From contig NZ_JAGSYI010000001.1 in assembly GCF_025685625.1 (NCBI RefSeq), forward strand, positions 1,302,001 to 1,366,000: a stretch of 64,000 nt of DNA. The letters are read 5' to 3'. Positions 1 through 61,017 of this stretch are shown in pieces. Made by a program: the position numbers and the translations under genes. The notes beneath the pieces are model-generated. The model was given only the letters and a program-made list of their open reading frames with translations, had not been told where the DNA came from and did not search any database. Source of the DNA: Acidicapsa acidisoli. GTDB taxonomy: Bacteria; Acidobacteriota; Terriglobia; Terriglobales; Acidobacteriaceae. Position 1 is the stretch's first letter. Each line of letters begins with the position of its first letter.

Positions 1-1612
1 GGAGGAAGCTGCGCAGGAGCAGACCTGCTCCGACGAGAAGCACACAGGCTAGGGCTACTTCGGAGACGACCAAGGTGGCGCGGAAGCGTTCGTGGCGGCG
101 GCCTGCGCCCATGCCGGAGGCGTTGTCCTTGAGCGACTCCTGTAGGTTGAGGCCGGACATTTTGAAGGCTGGGGCGAGGCCGAAGAAGATGCCGAGTGCG
201 AGGGCGATGAGGACGGTCCACGCGAGGGCTTCGCCGTCTACGCGGATGCTGCTGAGGAGTGGCAGGGCGATGGAGCCTTGCGTCGCGAGAGCGAAGACTA
301 CGGCGTAGGCGAAGACGAGTCCGAGGGCTGCTCCGGCGATGGCGAGGACGAGGCTTTCGGTGAGGAGCTGGCGGATGAGACGGCTGCGGCTGGCGCCCAA
401 TGCCCGGCGCATGGCGAGCTCTTTGCTGCGGGTGGCGGCACGGCTCAGTTGCAGGTTGGAGAGGTTGACGCAGACGATGAGCAGGATGAGTCCGACGGCG
501 GACCAGAGGACGACGAGGGAACGGCGGAGTTTGCCGCTGACGTGGTCTTTGAGGGTCAGGAGATTGGAGGAGTAATCCTCAAACCAGTCGGGGTGCAGGG
601 CTTTGAGGTGAGGGAAGAGGCGGTCGGCTTCGTCCTGAGCTTGGGCTAAGGGGACGCCGGGCTTGAGGCGTCCGACGACGGCCAGGGTGTTGCCCCAGGT
701 GCGCCAAAAGTCCATGATGGCCGGGACGAAGAGGTCGACTTTGCGGCCGGGGGCGAAGACGGAGCCGAAGTCGAAGCTTTCGGGGAGGACTCCGACGATG
801 GTGACTGGGGCGTTGTTGATTGTGACGGCTTTGCCGACGATAGCTGGATCGGAGTGAAACTGGGTCTTCCAGAAATACCAGGTGAGCAGGGTTGCGGGTG
901 GGCCGCCTTTCTGGCATTCCTGCTCTGTGAAGAGACGGCCGAATGCGGGCTGGATGCCGAGGACCGGGAAGAAATTGTCGGCGACCTCGACGGCGGCTAC
1001 CTGCTTGGGCTCGCCGGAGCCGGTGAGCTTGTATTGGAGAGAGTTGTAGAAGGTCTGGAAGCTGGTGACGGCTGCGAAGGACTGGTTGTTGCGCTGGAAC
1101 TCCTGGTAGGCGTCGACGGTGTAGGTTTCGGCGGAGAGACCGGCGGCGGTGCGGGCTTTGTCTTCTATGCTTTTACCGGCGATGAACCAGACGAGCTTTT
1201 GCGAGTCGGGGAATGGCAAGGGGCGCAGGAGCAGCGTGTTTACAACGCTGAAGACGGCGACGTTGGCCCCGATGCCGAGGGCTGCGACGAGGATGGCGAC
1301 GGTGGCGAAGCCGGGGTTGTTTTTGAGGGTGCGCAGGGTGTAGCGGAGGTCCTGGCGGAATTCGGTCCAGTAGTCGGTGAGGCGGCGACGGCGTTCCATG
1401 TGCTCTCCCATGCGTTCGCCGATGTGCTGGACGGCGAGGATGTTGCCGAACTGGCGTTCGGCTTCTTTGCGAGCGGATGTCGGAAGCCAGCCGCGTCGGA
1501 TGAGGTCTTCGGTTTTGGAGTCGATGTGGAAGCGGAGTTCGGCTTTGACGTCGGCGGCGGGGTCGGGGCCGTGGAGTCTGTCGAATCTTCGCCAGATGGG
1601 GATATTGCTCAT
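1..1612 (-). CDS. ADOP-type FtsX/MacB-like permease (partial, C-terminus outside window)
   Basis: About 537 codons lie in the window; the gene runs off the left edge. Reading from the ATG at 1612, the protein begins MSNIPIWRRFDRL. It has an N-terminal cytoplasmic helper domain with charged helices (AELRFHIDSKTEDLIRRG, then EAERQFGN) and a first membrane segment near residues 95-115 (GFATVAILVAALGIGANVAV). A periplasmic MacB-like domain follows (VVGRLKPG near the middle), then FtsX-like membrane segments with the motif RAATRSKELAMRRALGASR. This matches the acidobacterial duplicated orphan permeases, which lack an ATPase of their own. The ATG overlaps the stop of the upstream padR (ATGA), so the two are surely co-transcribed. 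The substrate is unknown; a role in peptide or lipoprotein export or in stress response is only inferred from the family. Confidence 0.88.
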   Translation of the reverse strand, partial: MSNIPIWRRFDRLHGPDPAADVKAELRFHIDSKTEDLIRRGWLPTSARKEAERQFGNILAVQHIGERMGEHMERRRRLTDYWTEFRQDLRYTLRTLKNNPGFATVAILVAALGIGANVAVFSVVNTLLLRPLPFPDSQKLVWFIAGKSIEDKARTAAGLSAETYTVDAYQEFQRNNQSFAAVTSFQTFYNSLQYKLTGSGEPKQVAAVEVADNFFPVLGIQPAFGRLFTEQECQKGGPPATLLTWYFWKTQFHSDPAIVGKAVTINNAPVTIVGVLPESFDFGSVFAPGRKVDLFVPAIMDFWRTWGNTLAVVGRLKPGVPLAQAQDEADRLFPHLKALHPDWFEDYSSNLLTLKDHVSGKLRRSLVVLWSAVGLILLIVCVNLSNLQLSRAATRSKELAMRRALGASRSRLIRQLLTESLVLAIAGAALGLVFAYAVVFALATQGSIALPLLSSIRVDGEALAWTVLIALALGIFFGLAPAFKMSGLNLQESLKDNASGMGAGRRHERFRATLVVSEVALACVLLVGAGLLLRSFL

Positions 1613-1968
1613 GCTTCCTCGGTCATTGGCGGCTGGGTTGCGCCGAGGACCTTGGCTACGGCGATGGCGTAGGCTTCCCAGGTCTTTGTTTCCTGGCGCA
1701 AGTGGCGGCGGCCCTCTTCGGTAAGGCTGTAGAACTTGGCTTTGCGGTTGTTTTCGGAGAGGCCCCATTCGGCTTCGATTAGATTCTTGCTTTCGAGACG
1801 CCAGAGCGCGGGGTAGAGAGTGCCTTCTTCGACGAGGAGGGCGTCGTCGCTCTGGCGGCGGATGAGGCTGGTGATGGCGTAGCCGTGGAGCGGTCCCCAG
1901 ATGAGGGACTTGAGGATCAGAACATCGAGGGTGCCGCGAAATAAATCCAGCCGGGTCTTTTCCAGCAT
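1609..1968 (-). CDS. PadR-family transcriptional regulator
   Basis: The 119-residue protein has the PadR winged helix: GTLDVLILKSLIWGPLHGYA, then VEEGTLYPALWRLE as recognition helix, and a short C-terminal dimerisation helix (EEGRRHLRQETKTWEAYAIA). The Shine-Dalgarno-like AGGGGAG precedes the ATG. Its stop codon overlaps the start of the permease gene, an arrangement typical of acidobacterial PadR-permease pairs in which the regulator represses its own operon. It is divergent from a second padR with a strong inverted repeat between them. The ligand is unknown. Confidence 0.93.
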   Translation of the reverse strand: MLEKTRLDLFRGTLDVLILKSLIWGPLHGYAITSLIRRQSDDALLVEEGTLYPALWRLESKNLIEAEWGLSENNRKAKFYSLTEEGRRHLRQETKTWEAYAIAVAKVLGATQPPMTEEA

Positions 1969-2009
1969 TCCATCTGCTCCCCTTTGATTTCATGGGAAGG
2001 ATGGCATGG

Positions 2010-4580: not shown

Positions 4581-4623
4581 TCCACCCATGTCGCGATGAG
4601 GCTGCGCCATGGATGGGGCACCC
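4581..4623 (-). repeat. Dispersed palindromic repeat, family R1
   Basis: On the minus strand the unit begins GGGTGCCCCATCC and ends TGGGTGGA. It shares its ends with copies at 6965, 22407, 28626, 40234, 59862 and 60645. Just upstream (about 4515-4555) is a second module, GAATGACAGAAAGGGAG then ACAACGGC. A reverse-complement version of it lies next to the copy at 28626, so the element is composite. The rest of the gap 4498-4699 shows no gene. Confidence 0.75.
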
Positions 4624-6712: not shown

Positions 6713-9700
6713 GTGCGCGGAGCGGGTTGGAGTTTTGCGGTTCTGCCGGGAGTGTTGGGCTTTCTGGCGCTTGGGCCTTTGTGCGTTGGGATTGGCGCGG
6801 CTGGCTTTCAGCAGACAGCGAAGCAGTCTTCCGAGATTGTGGTCAGGGCTAGTGAGCGGGGAAGCTCAGCGCCGGCGAGTACGGAACCGCCGCGTGTGCG
6901 GGCTGCTCGGGAGTTTCTGGCGCGGCGGGGGTTGAGACTGGGGCAGGCTCCAGGGCATCTGGCATCCCTCCCAGGTCTCAGAAGCGAGACCTGGGGCACC
7001 CACACCCAAACTCGAACTCAAGAGCTTGGTCAGGCGATGCCGGAGGCTTCCGGAGGACCGGTTTGGAGTGCTTTGGGGCCGGTGGGGGTGAATTCGCTTT
7101 CCTATGGGCTGGTTACGGGTAGGGTTTCTGCGATCGCAGTGGAGCCTTCGGATGCTTCGGGGAACCATGTTTTTGTGGGCACTACGGGCGGGGGGCTTTG
7201 GCAGAGTCAGAATGCCGCAGCTTCGACGCCGGGAAGTGTGCAGTTCCTGCCGCTTACGGACAATCTTGCTGTGCTGAGCAGCGCACAGGAGGCTGGGATC
7301 AGTATCGGCGCGGTGACGGTGCAGCCGGGAGGAACCGGCGTGGTGCTGGTGGGGTTGGGTGACCCGAATGATGCGCTGGACTCGTATTACGGAGCTGGAT
7401 TGCTGCGGTCTGGCGACGGCGGTCAGACATGGACGCTGATCCAGCAGACGATGGATCTGGAAGACAAACTGAGCGGACAGGACTATTCGTTTCTCGGGGA
7501 GGGATTTGCTGGGTTTGCGTGGAGCACGACGAATTCGCAGCTGGTGGTGGCGGCGGTTAGCCAGGCATATGAAGGGGCTGTTGTAAACGCGGTGCAGAGC
7601 GCTGCCAGCTATGAGGGGCTGTACTGGTCGAATGACAGCGGGTCGAGCTGGCATCTGGCTCGGATTACCGATCAGGATGGGGAGGACGTGCAGGGACCGC
7701 TCGATGGATTTGTGCTTCCGGATGGGAACGCGGCGACTTCGGTGGTGTGGAACCCGGTGCGCCAGGTGTTTGTGGCTGCGGTGCGGTATCACGGGTACTA
7801 CCAGTCGACGGATGGGATGAACTGGATGCAGATGCCGTCCTATCCAAATGGACAGCCGGGGGCTGGTTTTACGGCGGCAAATTGCCCGACGGAAGCTGGG
7901 TCGGTGGGGGTGGCGGGGTGTCCGATTTTTCGCGGCAGCCTGGCGGTGAATCCGGTGACTGGCGACACATTTGCGTGGTCGGTGGACGCCTTCAATCAGG
8001 ACCAGGGGATCTGGCAGGACCAATGCAATCTGGAAGGGATTGGCGCCGGGGTGAATTGTGCGACTCCTTCGATCACGTTTGGAACGCGGCTGGCAACGAC
8101 AGCGCTTGAGAGTTCGGATGAGAATGGGCCGGCGACGATTGAGAATGGCGACTACAACCTGACATTGGCGGCTGTGCCGACGGGTACCGGCGCGGGCGGT
8201 GACACGCTGGTTTTTGCCGGGGACAACGATCTGTGGAAGTGCAGTCTGGCGGCGGGATGCGCGTGGCGGAATACGACGAATTCGACGACCTGCATGAGTG
8301 CGCAGGTGGGCGAGTACCAGCATGGATTCGCGTGGGATTCGGGGAATCCGCTGCTGCTATACGTGGGCACGGACAGCGGGTTGTGGAGGTCTTCGGATGA
8401 CGTGGGCGAGACGGGCTCGGTTTGCGCTTCGACGGACGCCTCGCACTGGCAGAACCTGAATGGAAGTTTGGGGTTGCTGGCGGAGGTTGGCTCGCTGGGG
8501 GAATCGGCAAGTTCAGCGACGACGGTGTTGATTGGGTTAGGGGCAAATGGCGTGGCCGGGATTGCGGATGCTCCGGCGACAGCGGGGGATTGGAATGAGG
8601 TGCTCGGCGGGGAGGGTGGACCGGTGGCCGTGGACCCGACGAGCAATGTGAACAGTTGGTATGCGAATAACGGGGCGGGTGTTTCGATCTTTCACTGCAG
8701 TTCGGCGGCGGCTGGGGCGGGGTGTTCGGCTGCGGCATTTGGAACGACTCCGGTGATCGGAGAGTCTCAGGTAGGGAACGATGGTCTGACGATGCCGTTT
8801 CCGGCGGAGTTTCGGTTGGATCCGATGACTCCGGCTGACGTACTGATTGGAACCTGCCGGGTCTGGCGAGGGCCGGCTTCGGGGAGCGGATGGTCGGCGA
8901 GCAATGCGATATCGCCGATTCTGGACGGAAGCGGAGGATCGGTTTGCAATGGGAATGCGCTGATCCGGTCGATTGCGGCTGGAATCGTCACGGTTCCGGC
9001 TGCCAGCGCGGGTGAGGTCATTTATGTGGGGATGGCCGGGGTGCTGGATGGCGGCGGAGTGGCGGCGGGACATTTGTTTTCGGCTAAGGTTTCGTCCACG
9101 GGAACGGTAGGTAGCTGGACGGATCTGAGTTATTCGCCGGTGGTGAACAACGAGGCTGCGTTCAACGCCTTCGGCGAGGACGTGAGCGGAATCTATGTCG
9201 ATCCGCATGACGCGACGGGCCAGACGGTGTATGTCGCGGTCTCCGGGATCGCGAGCCCGTCGGAGCCACAGCAGCACTTGTATGGATCGACGGATGGCGG
9301 GGCGCACTGGACTTCGCTGCGTTCGAATCTGCCGAATGCACCGGCGAATTCGGTAGTGGTGGACTCGCAGGATGCCAACACCGTGTATGTGGCGACGGAT
9401 GTGGGTGTTTTTGTGACGCGGGCGATTGGGAGTTGCGGAGGCGCGACGGTAGGGAGTGGCGTGTCGTGCTGGGCGCCTTATGGCTCGGGCTTGCCGCTTG
9501 CGCCCGTGACGACGCTGGCAGTGACGCCGACGAGCGCCGCAAGCCAGGTGCTGACGGCTGGGACTTACGGGCGAGGGGTGTGGGAGATTCCATCGGCGAC
9601 GGCGGGAGCGGCGGTAACTACGGCTACAGTGACACCCGTTTCGTTGACCTTCGCGGGGCAGACGGTAGATACGAGCTCGGCTTTGCAGACGGTGACTCTG

Positions 9701-22406: not shown

Positions 22407-22448
22407 TCCCACCCTTGTCACGAAGAACATGCCAAGGATGGGGCACCC
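22407..22448 (-). repeat. Dispersed palindromic repeat, family R1
   Basis: The copy lies between the glycosidase and maf. It keeps the GGGTGCCCCATCCTTGG and CAAGGGTGGGA ends on the minus strand, with CCTTG/CAAGG forming the stem. Confidence 0.75.
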
Positions 22449-28625: not shown

Positions 28626-28669
28626 GGGTGCCCCATCCATCGCGCATCCTCATCGCGAAATGGGTGGGA
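28626..28669 (+). repeat. Dispersed palindromic repeat, family R1
   Basis: GGGTGCCCCATCCATCGCG and TGGGTGGGA ends are present. The reverse-complemented second module (CTTTCTGTCTGTCATTCCC) lies immediately before, just after the sigma-factor stop. The rest of 28670-28817 shows an open but start-less minus-strand stretch (LLPAARKFAEIGADYAEW) that could be a gene remnant. Confidence 0.75.
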
Positions 28670-40233: not shown

Positions 40234-40277
40234 GGGTGCCCCATCCACGGCGCAGCTCCATCGCGACATGGGTGGGA
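40234..40277 (+). repeat. Dispersed palindromic repeat, family R1
   Basis: GGGTGCCCCATCCACGGCG and CATGGGTGGGA ends, between the 3' ends of cobO and the haem-binding-like gene. Confidence 0.75.
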
Positions 40278-59556: not shown

Positions 59557-61017
59557 ATGTCCTACGCAGCCGCAATCGAAAATCTAAGCGCGCTCATGCC
59601 CGAGCTCTTCCACACCGCAGGCGCGCCACGCCGCAAATTCTCTCTCACTGAAATCGGCACCCTCTGCGCCGCCCTCGGCGATCCGCAAAGCCGATTTCCG
59701 TCCGTCCTGATCGCCGGCACCAACGGCAAAGGTTCCACGGCCTCGACCCTCGCCTCGATCGCCCGCGAATCCGGCCTACGCGTCGGGCTCTACACCTCGC
59801 CGCATCTCGACCGCGTCAACGAGCGCATCCGCCTCGGTGAACCTGCCCAACCTGATCAACTGGGTGCCCCAGGTCTCGCTTCTGAGACCTGGGCGTCGCT
59901 GCAGGACATCTCCGACGACGACTTCGCCCGCTTCTATTTCCGCGTCCACGACACCGCCCAACAGCTCGTCCTCGAAGCCAAACTCCCAGCCTTCCCCAGC
60001 TACTTCGAACTCCTGACCGCCCTCGCCTTCCTCTACTTCGCCGAATCCAAAGTAGATCTCGCCATCCTCGAAGTAGGCATGGGAGGCCGCCTCGACGCTA
60101 CCAATATCGTCGATCCCATCCTGTCCGTCATTACCGACATCTCCCTCGACCATCAGGAGTGGCTCGGTGCAACCATCGACCTCATCGCCCGCGAAAAAGC
60201 CGGAATCCTCCGCCCGAACGGCACGCTAGTGACGCTTCCCCAGCACCCCGAAGCCAACCAGGCCCTCGGCGAAGTAGCCGTAGAGCTGAACGTCCGCGGC
60301 ATCAGCGCAGCCGATTACATGCCCCAAATCGGCACAAATCCCGTCGCCCCCTACGCAATCGAAGTCCTCGGGAAGCAGATCCTCGTCGATTCCCCGCTCA
60401 AAGGCGCCCACCAGCATCGCAACATCGCTCTGGCCATCGCAGCCGCCGTCGAACTCCGTCACGCGCGCAACATCCCAATCACCCCCGAGACCATCCAGCG
60501 CGGCATCGCCACCACAAGCTGGCCCGGCCGCCTGGAAAAGCTAACCCTCCCCAATCCGCCCGAATTTCTGCTCGACGTAGCCCACAACCCCGCCGGAGCC
60601 TGGGCCCTCCGTGCTGCACTATCCGCCAATCAACCAGAGCGTTCGGGTGCCCCACATCTCGCTTCTGAGATGTGGGAGGGAAGCCAGGTCCTCATCTTCG
60701 CCTGCCTGCGCGACAAGCCCCTCCGCGAAATGACCCAGATCCTCTTCCCCATCTTCGACCACGTCATCCTTGCGCCGATCCACTCCCCCCGCGCCACCGA
60801 AGTCGCCGACCTGCAAGCCGCCGCCGAAGCCACAGGCGTCCCATCCACCCCCTCCAGCACCGTCGAAGAAGCCCTGCAGCTCGCTCTCCAGCTAAACCCC
60901 GCGAGAGTCGTCATCAGCGGCAGCGTCTATCTCGTCGGCGAAGCTCGCCATCTCCTCCTGGCATCCCGCATCACCCAATTCAAACAGGAAGGCAGCCGCC
61001 AGGACCCCGCTCCGTGA
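59557..61017 (+). CDS. folC: Folylpolyglutamate/dihydrofolate synthase with two in-frame repeat insertions
   Basis: The 486-residue Mur-ligase-type enzyme adds glutamate to dihydropteroate and folates. Motifs are the P-loop LIAGTNGKGSTASTLASIA, YTSPHLDRVNERIR, ILEVGMGGRLDATNIVDP, ITDISLDHQEWLG and FLLDVAHNPAGAWALRAAL. It is longer than the usual 410-440, partly because two R1 repeats are translated, as GAPGLASETW near residue 103 and GAPHLASEMWEG near residue 364. Both are in loops between conserved blocks, so activity is probably kept. Its stop overlaps the GTG start of the next gene. Confidence 0.95.
   Translation: MSYAAAIENLSALMPELFHTAGAPRRKFSLTEIGTLCAALGDPQSRFPSVLIAGTNGKGSTASTLASIARESGLRVGLYTSPHLDRVNERIRLGEPAQPDQLGAPGLASETWASLQDISDDDFARFYFRVHDTAQQLVLEAKLPAFPSYFELLTALAFLYFAESKVDLAILEVGMGGRLDATNIVDPILSVITDISLDHQEWLGATIDLIAREKAGILRPNGTLVTLPQHPEANQALGEVAVELNVRGISAADYMPQIGTNPVAPYAIEVLGKQILVDSPLKGAHQHRNIALAIAAAVELRHARNIPITPETIQRGIATTSWPGRLEKLTLPNPPEFLLDVAHNPAGAWALRAALSANQPERSGAPHLASEMWEGSQVLIFACLRDKPLREMTQILFPIFDHVILAPIHSPRATEVADLQAAAEATGVPSTPSSTVEEALQLALQLNPARVVISGSVYLVGEARHLLLASRITQFKQEGSRQDPAP
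59862..59893 (+). repeat. Family R1 repeat inside folC, in frame
   Basis: GGGTGCCCCAGGTCTC, loop GCTTCT, GAGACCTGGG. The ten-base arms are perfect. It sits between ERIRLGEP and ISDDDFARFY, which are nearly adjacent in other FolC proteins. Confidence 0.9.
60645..60681 (+). repeat. Family R1 repeat inside folC, in frame (second copy)
   Basis: GGGTGCCCCACATCTC, loop GCTTCT, GAGATGTGGGAGGGA. Relative to the first copy the arms differ at the same paired positions, so pairing is kept. Same reading frame as the first copy. Confidence 0.9.

Follow-up and report, generated by a model that had tools for sequence, protein, structure and literature searches.

Two REP-like hairpin units with different arms in the folC reading frame of Acidicapsa acidisoli

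Palindromic repeats that contribute to protein sequence have been described in several bacterial systems. REPs of the GTAG and CGTC families are mostly intergenic, with some lying wholly within ORFs and supplying REP-encoded amino acids, and the genes uvrA and uvrB are each described as bearing two REP insertions at different sites (PMC3733652). The folC gene analyzed here resembles these cases in having palindromes inside an ORF, two in the one gene, but the elements described there possess a GTAG or CGTC foot, while the four letters before the stem read GTGC in 39 of the 45 short units of the present family. The main text of PMC3733652 does not name folC. The same paper describes the Rickettsia palindromic elements (RPE), which are in-frame palindromes in genes that likely encode working proteins. 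By description only, the folC units are comparable to RPE as palindromes in frame within genes; RPE are found in other bacteria, however, and the present family has a transposase flanked by the matching repeat. REPtrons, described in PMC6006769, consist of a RAYT gene flanked by REPs, and those of subclass 2.4 include REPs inserted in tnpAREP genes with the frame kept. One RAYT locus of the host genome (L064, below) is likewise flanked by REP copies, with GTGC in place of the canonical GT[AG]G foot. Within the phylum, section 16 of PMC3733652 reports TIRYT transposases in T. saanensis, K. versatilis, A. capsulatum, and G. mallensis. Like the RAYTs analyzed here these are tyrosine transposases of Acidobacteria, and one has flanking repeats belonging to a repeated family; these repeats are termed long TIRs and are set beside the present units by description only. 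A table row in PMC12306157 names Granulicella aggregans. No report of a REP in folC was found among titles and abstract openings on Acidobacteria, intragenic REPs, and in-frame palindromes. The original prediction considered it unusual for an essential enzyme to tolerate coding repeats; earlier cases are on record, from REPs of several bacteria and from the Rickettsia elements (PMC3733652). The in-frame folC REPs are a good example of this phenomenon and not a new kind.

The folC gene and its two hairpin units

The folC gene (dihydrofolate synthase/folylpolyglutamate synthase, 486 aa) occupies positions 59557-61017 on the + strand of the window, the whole 64-kb stretch of DNA that was analyzed. 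It was defined as an ORF whose product matches the TIGR01499 profile at 328 bits (cut-off 162.65), identifying it as FolC, and a Foldseek comparison of its AlphaFold model with the PDB gives a folylpolyglutamate synthase as the top match (E 3.5e-30). A protein search of the host genome returned a single FolC among the matches listed. Two REP units lie within the gene, both on the + strand. Unit 1, with AGG arms, is found at 59862-59893 (exact 31-nt unit 59863-59893), is an exact copy of the type GGTGCCCC-AGGTCTC-GCTTCT-GAGACCT-GGG, and encodes residues 103-113, GAPGLASETW(A). Unit 2, at 60645-60677 (exact 31-nt unit 60646-60676), is an exact copy of the ACA arm type (ACATCTC/GAGATGT) and encodes residues 364-374, GAPHLASEMW(E). 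The loop GCTTCT, the orientation, and the codon phase are common to both, each unit starting at a codon boundary (GGT GCC CCA) of the 486-aa frame. This bears out the original prediction that folC holds two same-frame copies of a hairpin whose arms differ and yet pair perfectly: both units are perfect palindromes, and folded as single-stranded DNA of the + strand each yields an 11-bp stem (z of -4.03 and -5.23). A short-unit search of the window allowing ≤3 mismatches gave three matches, compared to none in 100 shuffles. Because conservation across the 45 short units of the genome extends from a G at position -1 (42/45) through the final GGG and is weaker beyond, each folC insert likely measures 33 nt, or 11 codons, comprising the 31-nt unit, the preceding G, and one following letter. 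Five of the six frames of the short unit are open in 41 or more of the 45 copies and the sixth in 3; since most frames are stop-free, the common reading frame of the two folC units is weak evidence when taken alone.

The FolC protein was searched in 61 genomes (the host genome and 60 relatives) and matched in 59. (In what follows G000 is the host genome, G001 and so on are relatives, and L-numbers denote loci fetched from these genomes.) An alignment was built from 24 of 30 fetched loci, the host and 23 others, with L082, L089, L091, L092, L093, and L094 excluded. Both inserts are missing from all 23 other FolC proteins, so the condition under which the original prediction would be refuted, the same loops in distant FolC lacking the palindrome, did not arise in this alignment. 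FolC length varies at both insert places within the genus. At the DNA level, the hairpin unit at ≤6 substitutions is missing from all 35 other FolC loci with flanks, which represent 33 genomes because L193 and L194 duplicate L071 and L070; L087 and L088 have only the bare octamer GGTGCCCC, beyond the FolC match. The nearest FolC is 76% identical to that of the host, and among these loci an empty site at the DNA level was not found. The FolC of relative G010 is longer than the others at both insert places. Its two stretches were considered as decayed REPs and rejected, their scores of 20 and 22 being matched or exceeded by 24/64 and 8/64 control windows of the same gene.

When FolC is aligned to the solved structure 1o5z, both REP-coded stretches fall in gaps. 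AlphaFold modeling on a 7-row alignment gave a mean pLDDT of 81.7, with values under 50 at residues 19-24, 101-111, 360-373, and 472-486; the model places the REP-coded residues 103-113 between two strands and 364-374 between a helix and a strand. Both REP-coded inserts thus coincide with low-confidence loops of the predicted structure.

The repeat family and its candidate transposase

A search of the host genome at ≤3 mismatches identified 45 short units, and the reversed control none; truncated or odd forms were left out of all REP counts. The short unit is 31-33 nt in length, with a GGGTGC head, a stem of 10-11 bp, and a loop of 4-6 nt, and 440 of 450 stem cells across the 45 units are paired. 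By their arms, 26 belong to an AGG subfamily and 6 to an ACA subfamily (folC copies included), the remainder being variants. Both arm types are also present in other species of the genus, among the matches listed. In the 32 of 45 units that were aligned, the covariation score is 0.269 against a shuffled mean of 0.118, with none of 500 shuffles as high, and 5 of 10 stem pairs are changed on both sides, which 5 of 500 shuffles equalled. Judged from these alignments, the stem covariation shows a hairpin family and not selection within folC; because the copies are related, it speaks for the family only.

A second, longer REP class, 35-42 nt as matched and of the form GGTGCCCCATCCTT...GGTGGG, has 49 accepted places in the host genome. 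These were drawn from 55 candidate rows, of which C1:897485, C1:1442032, and C1:1446502 were omitted as shorter readings of units already counted, C5:214793 as a reverse reading, and C1:1291021 and C3:452200 as non-palindromic by eye. All seven GGTGCCCC octamers in the window start a short or a long REP unit. Besides the folC pair, the window contains a third short unit with AGG arms at 6970-7000 (- strand) and long-class units at 4585-4622 (- strand; G000:C1:1306585-1306622), 22408-22447 (- strand; G000:C1:1324408-1324447), 28627-28664 (+ strand; G000:C1:1330627-1330664), and 40235-40272 (+ strand; G000:C1:1342235-1342272), all five of which are outside called genes.

In the broad sense these are REPs: hairpins of 20-40 nt with conserved sequence, in many dispersed and mostly intergenic copies. 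None of the 45 short units carries GTAG/GTGG or CGTC, the canonical foot, and the six that deviate from GTGC read ATGC (2), GTAC, GTGA, GACG, and ATTA. We have filed the family as REP-like with a RAYT partner, outside the GTAG and CGTC superfamilies, because the partner, size, copy number, and location fit but the foot does not. At ≤2 mismatches, units occur in 12 of the 61 genomes, the host included: 8 of the 15 members of the genus and, beyond the genus, 4 of 46 (G016, G022, G026, and G030).

The host genome encodes four Y1-transposase ORFs, all of which score above the cut-off of 80 bits for NF047646 REP_Tyr_transpos (93.5, 109.5, 109.6, and 102.9 bits). They form two groups (L062 and L063 versus L061 and L064) that are ~27-31% identical to each other. 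The L064 protein, encoded near 508,700 of contig C1, matches TnpA-REP 4er8 (E 6.7e-07) and carries the sequence MPEHVHLL, which we take to be the HUH-type motif. Its ORF, at 1462-1995 of the locus, is bracketed by two AGG units in inverted orientation, one at 1361-1391 (+) and the other at 1961-1991 (-), the latter encoding the C-terminal tail of the RAYT, QVSEARPGAP. Related RAYTs at L185 and L191 (G001, 75% identical to L064) and L174 (G012, 70%) have TQVSEARPGAP, TQVSKSRPGAP, and THISKARCGAP near their respective C-termini, and those at L185 and L174 likewise lie between inverted AGG and ACA units. The arrangement that defines a REPtron, a tnpAREP gene between inverted REP copies, is thus seen at L064, L185, and L174. 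Of the other host RAYTs, L061 has inverted long-class units on each side, the units at L063 are all on the + strand, and L062 has no recognized unit nearby. Within the genus, Y1 matches were found in all seven genomes with at least 26 units, while five of the eight genomes with 0-3 units lack them; the other three, G007, G009, and G014, have Y1 matches alongside 0, 0, and 1 units, which weighs against mobilization by a RAYT, though the Pfam family PF01797 also includes IS200-type transposases. From this gene content and arrangement, a RAYT (RAYT/TnpA-REP) probably spreads the REP-like family in the genus.

Origin of the folC units

We consider it very likely that the folC units are copies of this REP-like family, probably RAYT-spread, which came from two pre-existing arm subfamilies and were inserted separately into two length-variable loops. 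AGG and ACA arms alike are found in copies outside folC, so the gene itself need not have been where the paired changes took place. Two separate insertions from different sources are most likely, and this is also the simplest reading of the arm difference. Members of the AGG and ACA subfamilies, presumably mobilized by a RAYT, would each have entered one of two loops of a single folC. The gene would have stayed open because the insert length is, by our estimate, divisible by three and most unit frames contain no stops. FolC would have gained about 11 residues per loop, and the units would persist because the loops tolerate the added residues. The order of these events and the neutrality of the inserts are as we infer them, and FolC with its inserts is presumably active and essential. 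The folC units look recent, since both are intact and no relative examined has them. Of the explanations offered in the original prediction, selection or copying for the hairpin on one side and independent insertion of units from different sources on the other, we retain the second. Selection for the hairpin inside folC is not supported, as with 25 AGG and 5 ACA copies present beyond folC nothing had to change within the gene.

The occurrence of two units in one gene requires its own explanation. Of the four short units placed wholly inside called genes, two are in folC, and under random placement the chance of a shared gene is ~0.003 for 4 genic units and ~0.016 for 9. Such a coincidence is improbable at random and calls for local clustering or for a target that tolerates insertions, and we prefer an account in which local re-insertion and tolerant loops would both have contributed. 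REPs are indeed clustered genome-wide, with 18 neighbor pairs less than 1 kb apart against a mean of 1.3 and a maximum of 6 in 1000 uniform placements, a null that ignores the intergenic preference. This clustering, and the orientation, codon phase, and GCTTCT loop in which the folC units are alike, would also be consistent with a single insertion in folC that was then duplicated from one loop into the other, the later paired changes being kept by hairpin selection. We find this improbable: exactly the same arm differences separate two existing subfamilies, both of which are seen in other species too among the matches listed, and the four matching changes that copying would demand are needless.

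The hairpins in folC could alternatively be kept for a function, such as a hairpin in the mRNA that modulates FolC or a RAYT binding site. Both folC units are perfect palindromes, and a copy in the Era gene (below) is intact in the host and decayed in one relative; however, perfection is equally explained by recent insertion, none of the 23 other aligned FolC has the inserts, and REPs occur in unrelated proteins, making retention for function very improbable. That the loops are ancestral protein features, palindromic by accident, is hardly credible, for although FolC length at both places differs among members of the genus and is greater in G010, the G010 stretches are unlike the unit (scores 20 and 22, no signal above controls) and the unit matches 43 other places in the genome, mostly outside called genes.

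Repeats within other coding regions

Gene calls come from a home-made script based on codon usage, which assigned 85% of 164 kb as coding. Forty of the 45 short units are outside called genes, 1 is partial, and 4 are inside; the corresponding numbers for the 49 long units are 36, 8, and 5. These inside-gene counts may be too low, as the caller missed the L064 RAYT ORF and the REP encoding its C-terminus was therefore counted as outside genes; possible wrong calls are the N-terminal matches L114, L161, L207, L217, and L245 and the short, weak L143. Two relatives gave similar distributions: in G011, 26 of 30 units checked (of 55) are outside genes, 2 partial, and 2 inside, both N-terminal, and in G001, 25 of 30 checked (of 47) are outside, 1 partial, and 4 inside. 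The suggestion of a genome-wide habit of coding repeats is weakly true: tabulating the units found by search places only 4 of the 45 short ones inside called genes and most of both classes outside, and six REPs are nonetheless inside conserved proteins.

These six, of 94 REPs in total, are convincingly within FolC (two), Era, GlmS, a CcsB-like protein, and an ATP-dependent helicase that we take to be Lhr-like. The REP-bearing Era and GlmS score above their profile cut-offs (343 bits against 237 and 820 against 381), while the CcsB-like protein (81 bits, cut-off 187.6) and the helicase (480 bits, cut-off 1496; ORF incomplete) fall under theirs. The Era REP lies in residues 102-137, a stretch unmatched between residues 100 and 104 of 9jkp, and that of GlmS (L097, long class, C1:897474-897513) lies in a 31-residue stretch, 144-174, unmatched between residues 139 and 142 of 4amv. 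REPs mostly avoid genes, as would be expected if most insertions are harmful, and the surviving insertions sit in stretches missing from relatives.

The GTPase Era of the host (L050/L273, C2:1745294-1745324) contains an intact REP read on the other strand. Against this unit as reference, the Era of G011 has a decayed form there, with position and frame unchanged and a score of 44 against a control maximum of 37 (185 windows). The Era of G002 has a weaker and doubtful form, whose score of 32 against a control maximum of 35 (185 windows) is not significant alone and counts only by virtue of its position in the alignment, and that of G010 shows no REP trace (22 against 25; 187 windows). Scored against the best of four reference units, without controls, the loops of G011, G002, and G010 reach 48, 36, and 22; the relatives compared include loci L275 and L276. 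From these comparisons the Era unit looks older than the folC units. The Era match in G006 (L279) contains one internal TAG stop.

The loop of the CcsB-like protein contains one long-class unit in the host (L142/L259) and two short-class units in G001 (L236/L271), and REPs are missing from it in the 11 other aligned rows. Because the REP classes differ and the other rows lack REPs, this suggests one tolerant loop struck independently in two species. A broader reading, which we put forward only tentatively and consider doubtful, is that RAYT-driven REPs of the genus have repeatedly found harbor in tolerant loops of conserved proteins, with the peptide adopted in places; the RAYT tails of four related genes, the surviving Era insertion, and the CcsB-like loop struck in two species by different REP classes would be instances. 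If this were true, coding REPs would steadily supply proteins with new loops. The REP-coded RAYT tail and the older Era insertion merit attention, and the genus is suited to tracing the insertion, inheritance, and decay of coding REPs across species. For Acidobacteria, folC offers a clear and well-bounded case: a single-copy housekeeping enzyme with two intact units of two subfamilies and an identifiable transposase partner.

Further coding REPs were observed in these genomes. The related ATP-dependent helicases at L133 (host) and L256 (G001) have one REP each, and the two sites differ when placed on the NF007284 profile. At L255 of G001 (PBP2/MrdA-like), a CGG-armed REP encodes part of the C-terminal tail of penicillin-binding protein 2.
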